A stretch of 37,326 nucleotides of DNA, taken from positions 1 to 37,326 of the forward strand of contig CANJEC010000002.1 in NCBI GenBank assembly GCA_947473395.1. Reading direction: 5' to 3'. A program made the position numbers and the translations under genes. Source of the stretch: Actinomycetota bacterium (GTDB lineage Bacteria > Actinomycetota > Acidimicrobiia > Acidimicrobiales > Microtrichaceae). The notes under the pieces are model-generated. The model saw only the letters and a list, made by a program, of their open reading frames with translations, ran no database searches and was not told the DNA's origin. Below, piece after piece: positions 1-4,751 of the stretch (position 1 is its first letter; each line of letters begins with the position of its first letter).

Positions 1-1740
1 CGCCCCGATGGCACATGGACCTGGCGCGCAGCCGGAGCCAAACAGCCCAAAGGCGATTTACGCTCATCCATTCTTCCTGCAGGCTGCAAGGTCGGCGATG
101 TCGTTCGGGCTGATGCCGAGTTCGAACTAGAGGGCATCGAGATTCTTCATGTGCTGCCTCCAAAGGCTGCAAGAAAAGAACCTGAGATGTTGACCGTGAT
201 TGGAACACGCCAAGACGAGCCGCTCGTCACGAGCACCCTGGTCGAGAAGTCGGGTCGTTCACGAGACGGCGACCGCGGAGGGTCACGTCGTGATCGTGAG
301 GATCGCGGGCCACGTGGGGACCGAGGTCCACGCGGTGATCGCCCGAGCGGCGGCCGTGGCGGCGGACGCGATGGTGCCGGCGGACGCGATGGCGCTGGCG
401 GAGGCCGTCCAGGCGGAGATCGTCCCGGAGGAGACCGCCCCGGAGGAGACCGCCCCCGCAGCGATCGTCCCCGCGGCCCTCGTCCCGATGCCGTTCCTGA
501 ACGTCCACGGCCAAAGCGCTTGCGCCCAGGTCGCGCACATCGAGCAGCCGTTCTTGACACACTCCCGGTAGAGCACCGCCCCATTGCAGAGCAGGTCATC
601 CGCGGAGGGGTTCCGGCTGTACGTGAGGCAATTGCAGAACAAAATGCCCAAGCGAAGAAGGAAGGTCGAGCAGAGATCCCCTCTGAGCAACTCATTGCCC
701 TCGCAGAAGACTTGCTGCCTCAGCTGCGAGCTGCTGAGTGGTTGGATCGAGCCGAGGCTGCGCTAGCTGACCTTGAGGAGCTTGACCTTCGTGACCTTCG
801 TTCTGTAATCGTTGCAGCGGATGGTGTTGCGCGTGGTCCCGAGGCGTTGGCCCTGAAAGAGCAGATTCAAGCCGGCTTGACGCGACGTATTGAAGAGGAG
901 CAAGCCCTATGGATTGCAGATATCACTGCCAATCTTGATGGCGGTCGATTCGTCAGGGCGCTCCGTCTGAGCTCACGTCCGCCAAAGGCAGGCGCCCCGC
1001 TCCCGGTTGAACTGTCTAGTCGCCTAGTCACTGCAGTGTCTGAGGGGCTTACCCCTACGGTCAATCAAGACCTCTGGGCCGCCGCATTGGATGCTCTGGC
1101 GTTCTCGCCTGTCCGCAATCAAGTCACCCCGGCGGGCCGACCCGAGGAACCCTCTCCAGCCCTGCTCGATGCAGTTCGTCGCGTTGGTGATCGCCTGCCC
1201 AAGATTGTTCAGTTATTTGGGCTCGATCCCGCAGAGATTGCTGCTGCTGCAAAGAAGCGTGGGCGAAGTGGTCCCCGCGGCTCAAAGCCCGGAGGCTCAA
1301 AGTCCGGATCAGCCAAGTCTGGATCACCGAAGCCAGACGCATCGAAGCCCGAAAGTCCGACAACCAGCTCCGCTCCGAGCGATGAGCAAAGTCCTGATAA
1401 TGAAAACAACGATAGGGAGAACAATTCAATGAACACCTCACAGGAATCATCAACGGCAGCGCCCGGCGAAGTCACTATTGACGAGATCATCATCGGCGAG
1501 GAGATCATCGTCGAAGAGACCATTTTGGTCGAGGAAGTCATGATGGAGAACAGCGATGGAGAAGTCGTCCTTGTTGAGGACATCATCGTTGTGGAAGACA
1601 CGATCGTGATTGACGATGTGCTCCTTGTAGAGAGCATCGACGGCGTCATCGTGGACGTCGAGGAAATCCTCGTGGTCGAGGAGACAGTCACGGTTGATGA
1701 AGCCATCATCGTCGAAGACATCACAGCCGAAGACTCATAG
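1..1740 (+). CDS. 5'-truncated RG-rich protein with acidic beta-branched repeat tail, function unknown
   Basis: The frame is open from base 1, so the start lies outside the window; a GTG at 151 is internal. About 579 residues are visible. In order: a short ordered segment (nt 1-230) rich in Val, Gly and charged residues; an Arg/Gly/Asp-rich disordered segment (about nt 244-500) with GDRPG-type 5-residue repeats; a helical, Ala/Leu/Glu-rich domain (about nt 540-1245); a Ser/Lys/Pro linker; and a C-terminal tail (1468-1737) of alternating Glu/Asp and Val/Ile. RG-rich segments are common in RNA-binding proteins, so an RNA-related role is an inference only. I do not recognise the family. An ATG at 1429 with a good Shine-Dalgarno could also start the tail as a separate 103-residue product. 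The reading frame is clearly real; the function is open. Confidence 0.8.
   Translation, partial: RPDGTWTWRAAGAKQPKGDLRSSILPAGCKVGDVVRADAEFELEGIEILHVLPPKAARKEPEMLTVIGTRQDEPLVTSTLVEKSGRSRDGDRGGSRRDREDRGPRGDRGPRGDRPSGGRGGGRDGAGGRDGAGGGRPGGDRPGGDRPGGDRPRSDRPRGPRPDAVPERPRPKRLRPGRAHRAAVLDTLPVEHRPIAEQVIRGGVPAVREAIAEQNAQAKKEGRAEIPSEQLIALAEDLLPQLRAAEWLDRAEAALADLEELDLRDLRSVIVAADGVARGPEALALKEQIQAGLTRRIEEEQALWIADITANLDGGRFVRALRLSSRPPKAGAPLPVELSSRLVTAVSEGLTPTVNQDLWAAALDALAFSPVRNQVTPAGRPEEPSPALLDAVRRVGDRLPKIVQLFGLDPAEIAAAAKKRGRSGPRGSKPGGSKSGSAKSGSPKPDASKPESPTTSSAPSDEQSPDNENNDRENNSMNTSQESSTAAPGEVTIDEIIIGEEIIVEETILVEEVMMENSDGEVVLVEDIIVVEDTIVIDDVLLVESIDGVIVDVEEILVVEETVTVDEAIIVEDITAEDS
1415..1431 (+). promoter_or_regulatory. 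Internal Shine-Dalgarno and ATG inside the RG-rich protein gene
   Basis: GGGAG at 1415-1419 is followed after 9 nt by an in-frame ATG at 1429-1431. Initiation here would give a 103-residue protein made almost only of the acidic Val/Ile/Glu tail. The preceding linker is Asn/Asp/Ser-rich, and the tail composition changes sharply about 13 residues after this point. It may be coincidental, but spacing and strength are as good as many annotated starts in this window. Confidence 0.4.
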
Positions 1741-1788
1741 AACACACGAGTACGCACCTACCACTCTTGCTGCGCTAGATTCCGCGTC

Positions 1789-2565
1789 ATGACAGTGGAC
1801 TATGAAAAACTCGGCAATGTTGGAATCATCACGATTAATCGTCCTGAGGCGCGCAACGCAGTAAGTAGCGCAGTCGCCCAAGGGATTGAGTCGGCGATTG
1901 ATCAGATTGAAGCAGACGACGAGGTGTGGGTCGGAATTCTGACTGGCGCAAAAACAGAAAAGGGGTACATCTTCTGCGCGGGCGCTGACCTGAAGCAGAT
2001 GGCAACGGACCCTGGCGGTATGTCCACGGCAAAAGGCGGATTTGGTGGATTTGTGCAGCGTGAGCGGACGAAGCCGATCATCGCTGCAGTTGACGGCCCA
2101 GCGTTGGCAGGTGGGACAGAGTTGGTCCTAGCGGCCGACCTAGTTGTCGCTTCGAAGACTGCCGTGTTTGGTGTGCCGGAGGTAAAGCGCAACCTTGTCG
2201 CAGCTGCAGGTGGGCTCTTCCGGCTGCCAAGAAAGTTGCCAAGGAATATTGCAATGGAACTCGTTCTGACGGGGCGCCTAGATTTTCCTGCTGAGCGGGC
2301 CTACGAGTTCGGCTGGGTCAACCGGCTCTGCGAAGAGGGTGAAGCCCTAGAGACTGCAAAGGCTCTCGCCGCAGAGATCACTGCCAACGCTCCCCTAGCA
2401 GTTCGAGAGAGTCGAAAGATCGTGCTCGAAGCCACAGACCAGCCTGACGATATTGGTTGGAAGCTCTCGGGAGACGGAATCGTCAAGATGTTTGGTACCG
2501 AGGACTTTGCAGAAGGTCTCAACGCCTTTATCGAGAAGCGCCCTCCGGAGTGGAAGGGCCGCTAG
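1789..2565 (+). CDS. Enoyl-CoA hydratase/isomerase family protein (crotonase fold)
   Basis: 258 residues, the normal single-domain crotonase length. Crotonases bind acyl-CoA thioesters in the cytoplasm; classic members hydrate trans-2-enoyl-CoA in beta-oxidation. The oxyanion-hole segments are visible: FCAGADL about residue 61, and the AGGTEL segment near residue 104. The two glutamates used by hydratases are kept, one in GGTE and one in GVPEVKRNL, followed by AAGG. Hydratase activity is therefore plausible, but the substrate cannot be read; the family also includes isomerases and dehalogenases. The ATG at 1789 lies 48 nt after the preceding stop. The gene ends before a perfect hairpin and is convergent with the Nudix gene. 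Confidence 0.88.
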   Translation: MTVDYEKLGNVGIITINRPEARNAVSSAVAQGIESAIDQIEADDEVWVGILTGAKTEKGYIFCAGADLKQMATDPGGMSTAKGGFGGFVQRERTKPIIAAVDGPALAGGTELVLAADLVVASKTAVFGVPEVKRNLVAAAGGLFRLPRKLPRNIAMELVLTGRLDFPAERAYEFGWVNRLCEEGEALETAKALAAEITANAPLAVRESRKIVLEATDQPDDIGWKLSGDGIVKMFGTEDFAEGLNAFIEKRPPEWKGR

Positions 2566-4199: not shown

Positions 4200-4751
4200 C
4201 TACTTCTTTGCAGCCTTTTTGAGTCGCTTCTGAACCTGTGCGATCGAAGGGCAAGGAGAGTATCCCTCAGGGCAGACCAGATTGTCTTTGGGTCCAAACT
4301 GACGGGGGTGGACAATCATGAAGCATGTCCCACAGGTGAACTCTTCAGCCGACTTGGCTGCAACACGCTCTGTACCGTCCGCATCAGAAGAGGAATCCGC
4401 TATTTCTTCCTCTTCATCCTCGTCATCAGGAGTTGCAGCAATTCGGTCCTTCAAGATGGCGTCGAGGTCAGCCTCAACATCATCGGGGTCTACGTCTTCG
4501 TCCTCGTCGTCGTTGACATCGGAAGGACGCTTGCGCCGAGCGGCTGGAGCATCCTCCTCCTCTTCCTCTACAACAACCTCAGCAGAGACGTCGTCAACGA
4601 TGACATCTCCGACCACAAGGTCGTCAAGTTCTCCGTCATCTTCTTCGTCTAGCTCGTCAACTTCAAGGTCGTCTTCCTCGAGTTCTTCTTCCTCAAGGGC
4701 TTCGGCCTCTTCGCCATCAATGTCATCTTCCAAGATTTCTCTTCCGTTCAC
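4200..4751 (-). CDS. DUF4193-like zinc-ribbon protein with long acidic N-terminal extension
   Basis: 183 residues from a GTG start. The C-terminal part matches the DUF4193 pattern: DLDAILKDRIAA, an acidic spacer, then FTCGTCFMIVHPRQF and a second Cys pair. Cys140, Cys143, Cys160 and Cys167 are placed to bind zinc. Known DUF4193 proteins are small (about 100 residues) and of unknown function. Here residues 1-95 add a highly acidic tract with runs of Glu and Asp and a Val/Ile-rich stretch near residues 45-61. A Lys-rich tail ends the protein. It may be monocistronic: 149 nt separate it from the upstream thyX-like gene and 60 nt from the downstream gene. Confidence 0.8.
   Translation of the reverse strand: MNGREILEDDIDGEEAEALEEEELEEDDLEVDELDEEDDGELDDLVVGDVIVDDVSAEVVVEEEEEDAPAARRKRPSDVNDDEDEDVDPDDVEADLDAILKDRIAATPDDEDEEEEIADSSSDADGTERVAAKSAEEFTCGTCFMIVHPRQFGPKDNLVCPEGYSPCPSIAQVQKRLKKAAKK

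Follow-up and report, generated by a model that had tools for sequence, protein, structure and literature searches.

At its left edge, the actinobacterial contig analysed here carries a long open reading frame that closes with a strongly acidic, valine- and isoleucine-rich repeat. The question raised by this locus is whether the repeat is only the C-terminus of a long protein or may also be produced as a small protein of its own. The window, by which we mean the whole stretch of DNA that was analysed (37,326 nucleotides; G000:C2 starting at base 1), begins inside the gene. The frame is open from base 1 to 1740 and encodes at least 579 amino acids, the 5' end being lost at the contig edge. An intact relative of 610 amino acids is found in the actinobacterial strain IMCC26207 (L005:4965-6797). 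This strain is encountered in publications on the class Acidimicrobiia, and among the titles and abstracts on it none concerned this gene. The features discussed below are collected in Table 1.

Table 1. Features at the left edge of the window. Positions are those of the window; the borders of the N-terminal domain are approximate and were mapped from L005.
Feature	Position	Strand	Basis
Long ORF, body and linker	1-1428	+	ORF list; homologues in the family
Remainder of N-terminal OB / cold-shock-like domain	1-153	+	AlphaFold2, Foldseek
RG/RPGGD-rich basic low-complexity segment	250-483	+	Translation; tandem repeats of 15-18 nt
Conserved helical domain, family unassigned	526-1263	+	AlphaFold2; first half predicted with confidence
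Hypervariable SK/PE-rich linker	1264-1413	+	Amino-acid differences and indels within the genus
Shine-Dalgarno-like AGGGAG	1414-1419	+	Anti-Shine-Dalgarno pairing; alignment of six species
Nested in-frame ORF, 103 aa	1429-1737	+	Stop codon 1738-1740; synonymous divergence
Acidic V/I/E repeat core	1468-1737	+	Period of 5-6 residues
Enoyl-CoA hydratase-like gene, neighbour	1789-2565	+	ORF list; gene order in sister genera

The body of the long protein, homologues of which are present in 30 of the 33 genomes of the family, is probably RNA-binding, since it combines a predicted OB fold with an RG-rich segment. AlphaFold2 places five strands (E3-63) in the N-terminal domain, with pLDDT mostly 66-83, and in a Foldseek search the matches were led by the cold-shock domains of YB-1, CspA and Lin28 (probability up to 1.00, E 0.12, TM score 0.64 by target). 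The Pfam cold-shock profile matched none of the 21 members of the body family, and no family in Pfam, NCBIfam or PHROG was matched by the body as a whole. The helical domain is conserved over 21 sequences and is modelled as helices (H190-322 of L005) with pLDDT of about 80-88; the long protein outside these two domains is modelled with low confidence. In the IMCC26207 protein the RG-rich segment has a charge of +11.9, and the predicted pI of the long form is 9.4 without the tail and 4.8 with it. The linker that precedes the tail shows a mean pairwise amino-acid difference of 42% within the genus and has acquired several indels, every one of which preserves the frame in the six species. Body and tail are not separated by a stop codon in any of the genus's six genomes, so that the long product is near certain to be made, provided that the gene is expressed.

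A preliminary description of this DNA had reported some 90 residues chiefly of Glu, Asp, Val and Ile at the end of the frame, and this is borne out. The core is a single open frame of 90 residues containing 20 Glu, 20 Val, 17 Ile and 11 Asp; D/E/V/I together account for 76% of it and I/V/L/M for 49%, Lys, Arg and His do not occur, and the charge is about -31. When D/E/V/I content was compared across 1,154 ORF stretches no shorter than 90 amino acids (320 kb of a sister genome), for which the 99th percentile is 41%, the core ranked above them all. The roughly seven-residue pattern given by the same description is contradicted, however. Acidic pairs recur once per 5-6 residues, the correlation of acidic residues is high at spacings of 5 (z=3.3) and 6 (z=3.9) but not at 7 (z=0.16), and the spectral peak lies at 5.5 residues, with none of 2,000 shuffles giving an equally strong one. 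At the DNA level the tail consists of degenerate repeats spaced mainly by 15 and 18 nt, and it has therefore probably grown by duplication of units. While place and composition were correctly described, the real conserved unit is larger than the core and starts at the upstream in-frame ATG. This ATG and its Shine-Dalgarno sequence (1414-1431), which had been missed, are the more interesting part of the locus.

The ATG is situated just 5' of the repeat core, and AGGGAG precedes it by a gap of 9 nt, within a 19-nt block (AACAACGATAGGGAGAACA) that shows one change among the six species aligned. The predicted anti-Shine-Dalgarno pairing, at -8.8 kcal/mol, is stronger than that of 98% of the 170 internal in-frame ATGs in the window. 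It also exceeds that of 94% of the 31 first-start codons in the window, although this comparison is rough, the starts having been called mechanically. Both the ATG and its spacing are kept in all six species, and the single substitution in the Shine-Dalgarno sequence occurs in L002, where the predicted pairing is -6.4 as against -8.8 in the other five. These conserved elements are embedded in the hypervariable linker. Initiation at the ATG would give a protein of 103 residues (11.2 kDa, pI 4.05, charge -32), and a sigma-70 consensus scan detected no separate promoter 5' of the tail. We note that L002 and L003, two metagenome assemblies from the genus, carry the title Bifidobacterium breve in the public record, apparently by a mistake in naming.

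Synonymous divergence falls abruptly at about the same point. Over the first 60 tail codons there are 0.110 synonymous differences per conserved codon, compared with 0.273 for amino-acid-matched codons drawn from the body and the next gene. For the most diverged pair, G003 and G001, this corresponds to z=-6.1, and none of 150 internal 60-codon windows is as low (minimum z=-3.66); closer species pairs give a weaker signal, with z of about -2.4. Because five of the six genomes of the genus used in this test are close to one another, the evidence from divergence depends mainly on a single lineage (L006/G003). The observed/expected ratio is 0.33 over the whole tail and 1.01 in the body of this ORF, the range for recognisable ribosomal-protein genes being mostly about 0.32-0.64, and a ratio of 0.84 was obtained for an acidic control gene. 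Divergence then climbs with distance from the ATG, resembling the profile that runs from the true N-terminal start of the ORF. Weighing against a nested start, the tail is matched in lowness by 1 of 12 true gene starts, and the first 70 or so codons of the long ORF (L005:4965-5174) likewise have a low observed/expected ratio (0.59) and form a longer low stretch than most gene starts.

Two general causes of such a drop were considered and set aside. Exchange between species in the recent past is unlikely: at the amino-acid level the tail has diverged no less (0.062) than the body (0.031). High-expression codon bias as the sole cause was rejected: the codon usage of ribosomal-protein genes is barely biased in this genus, and slow synonymous change is therefore to be read as a correlate of expression or position.

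The control gene (4200-4751, minus strand) is itself worth recording. It encodes a very acidic protein of 183 amino acids with V/D/E runs that resemble the tail in composition and a C-terminus containing CxxC, and it matches DUF4193 weakly (E 0.0011, under the curated cut-off). On L067, a ribosomal-protein contig of G001, the minus strand likewise has an ORF with a long acidic low-complexity stretch rich in A/V/D/E, situated among ribosomal-protein genes.

From these sequence comparisons we judge the chances to be about even that translation of the gene begins at two sites, yielding a long, probably RNA-binding protein together with a free acidic protein of 103 amino acids that would act as a polyanion. 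The alternative that survives best is a single long protein of which the tail is simply the C-terminal domain, the Shine-Dalgarno and ATG being coincidental and the slow synonymous evolution having some other origin, such as mutation rate or an mRNA or co-translational constraint. We regard this as doubtful but a reasonable possibility. The unbroken frame in all six genomes is what it predicts, the acidic C-termini of the sister proteins need no internal start, and an equally good Shine-Dalgarno arises by chance at about 2% of the internal ATGs in the window. A zone of low Ks that reaches well past codon 10 has been described for bacterial gene 5' ends, and the lowered rate can be mutational instead of selective (PMC12725619). 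Either cause would mark a gene start alike, and some other cause of low mutation could act in the tail. Coincidence would nevertheless have to account for a Shine-Dalgarno, spacing and ATG maintained in six species amid a linker that varies so freely, and for a synonymous drop that coincides with the ATG when the only other one in this ORF is at its 5' end.

Each of the six genomes of the genus has the tail (87-92% identity), and it is confined to them: outside the genus, searches of 298 genomes from the order, of 397 from the phylum, and of phages, viral contigs, plasmids, PDB, PHROGs and Pfam/NCBIfam gave no homologue. The one order-level match (G089, E 2e-4) was dismissed as compositional, being a V/D run in a frame that is apparently not coding. 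In sister genera the homologues of the body have variable low-complexity C-termini, rich in A/E/P/D and usually acidic, with D/E up to 37% and V/I at most 18%; that of L025, from another genus, is unrelated and includes the V/E-rich run VVVEEVPDAEAEVVADEAVV. The preliminary description had regarded absence of the tail from the orthologues, or its replacement there by random acidic sequence, as evidence against its interpretation; this is the situation in all other genera, but not within the genus.

Gene order in the sister genera is body, convergent phosphatase, enoyl-CoA hydratase, and the tail occupies the interval where the phosphatase gene lies in those genomes. This HAD-type phosphatase (L020:407-970; L076; G010:C1:472343-472882) was not found in any of the six genomes of the genus with a query that was positive in all four sister genomes. 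The antisense strand of this lost gene was rejected as the source of the tail, as DNA matches extended over only 25-27 nt and there was no protein match. The genus, which is one of freshwater actinobacteria, has swapped a loose acidic end for a conserved V/I-rich repeat. As a separate observation, several genera have a TA-N3-T box (TAGATT, TACATT, TAGTGT) about 8-14 nt upstream of the enoyl-CoA hydratase-like ATG (window 1770-1791 and the corresponding position in L076, L078 and L081), and its location so close before this ATG suggests that the transcript of that gene is leaderless.

This distribution bears on a second alternative, namely that the tail is an ordinary disordered acidic extension which drifted to V/I/E through expansion of the 15/18-nt repeats and whose role is negative charge alone. 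The repeats themselves are visible in the DNA, and acidic tails of unrelated sequence do occur in other genera, L025 being an example in which V/E-rich runs are present. A freely drifting tail would resemble the linker, however, whereas its high identity is maintained over about 100 residues directly beside that far more divergent segment, and the proportion of I/V/L/M in the core is unusual for disorder. We therefore consider this explanation somewhat unlikely. It is unlikely, too, though it goes beyond the two-start reading, that a young orphan gene for an abundant acidic beta-repeat protein arose where the phosphatase was lost and acquired dual starts, its free form co-assembling with or neutralising the RNA-binding form; if true, an RNA-protein condensate or complex would thereby contain its own stoichiometric regulator.

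The preliminary description had favoured a beta-solenoid-like or self-assembling tail, and a module of this or an amyloid-like kind we now hold to be distinctly improbable. The alternation of beta-branched and acidic residues, with a regular period of 5-6 residues, is in keeping with it, and structure prediction of the tail did draw strands and nothing else. Mean pLDDT was only 39.5, so that no confident fold emerged, the AlphaFold2 model resting on a shallow alignment of near-identical sequences, and a sequence search of the PDB was empty. The mixture of 5- and 6-residue spacings departs from the strict 6-residue period of the hexapeptide left-handed beta-helix, and a charge of -31 would counter stacking unless neutralised by cations or basic partners. 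Most improbable of all is that the synonymous sites are constrained not by a nested start but by RNA structure or by an overlapping gene on the antisense strand: all six species have one open antisense frame, but its third positions pair with sense third positions and would not suppress sense-synonymous change, every other frame carries stops, and the stability of the RNA fold does not exceed that of shuffles (z 0.02), with 0 of 102 pairs compensatory.

Returning to the two-start reading, one mRNA would give both a long protein ending in the acidic repeat and a separate, probably abundant, free protein of 103 amino acids. Within the long form the repeat would act as a polyanion, folding back on the RG/K-rich segments and competing with RNA for them, which is the simplest role that can be proposed for the tail; the free form would exert the same competition in trans. 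Alternatively, the free form may pair with the long form's tail by means of the alternating beta-branched/acidic pattern and set the stoichiometry. A charge-based role is plausible because a basic RG-rich segment is present on the same protein and the C-termini in sister genera are mostly acidic. To this extent the earlier idea of a counter-ion sponge beside the RG-rich segment holds up, while the charge-based mechanism itself is something that we infer, as are the short product and RNA binding by the body. The I/V content and the conservation of the tail may indicate a more specific role, perhaps beta pairing between tails, but with a tail model of such low confidence this is conjecture. We put at about even the odds that the free protein is produced as well and functions in this way.

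Mechanical gene calling would report the long protein alone. If the short protein is made, it would be a dated case of the origin of a new module, limited to one genus and with the sister state known, in which the module fused to an old RNA-binding protein yet retained its own start, allowing origin, fusion and dual expression to be followed side by side. Bacteria would then also provide an example of an acidic regulator that is available in cis as well as in trans. Long ORFs might be screened for further cases by looking for abrupt falls in synonymous divergence at conserved Shine-Dalgarno-ATG pairs.

What we describe is a candidate nested in-frame product combined with the acidic tail of a probable RNA-binding protein, both of them known phenomena, here built from an orphan repeat module. 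In its body the protein resembles cold-shock and other OB-fold RNA-binding proteins, with the predicted OB fold nearest to YB-1, CspA and Lin28 followed by an RG-rich segment; it differs from cold-shock proteins in lacking a Pfam cold-shock match and in possessing an additional conserved helical domain outside the known families. The tail shares with left-handed beta-helix (hexapeptide) and RTX repeats a short regular repeat of beta-branched or acidic residues, but its period is 5.5 and not 6 or 9, it has no G-rich turns, and its translation contains no GGxGxD nonapeptides. Parallels for its proposed function are the acidic C-terminus of Hfq, for which competition of a polyanion with RNA has been shown (PMC5606850), and D/E-rich tails of the HMGB1 type, the charge role of which has been analysed (PMC10250230). 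In each, and perhaps here too, a negative tail belongs to a nucleic-acid-binding protein with a basic surface, and nucleic-acid mimicry is proposed. Those tails are disordered, however, whereas about half of the present one is hydrophobic and mostly beta-branched, and unlike D/E-repeat tails with their long D/E runs it has no acidic run longer than two residues (position list). The proposed nested arrangement has its counterpart in Cas11, produced from cas8 by an internal start (PMC11899642). Although the locus studied here is not CRISPR-related, and its nested product would be a genus-specific acidic repeat without homologues, the two have in common a single ORF, an internal Shine-Dalgarno-like sequence and an in-frame ATG, with the C-terminal part released as a separate small protein, as proposed here from sequence; the two in-frame Rep proteins reported for plasmid pIGRK (PMC6854812) are a further counterpart.
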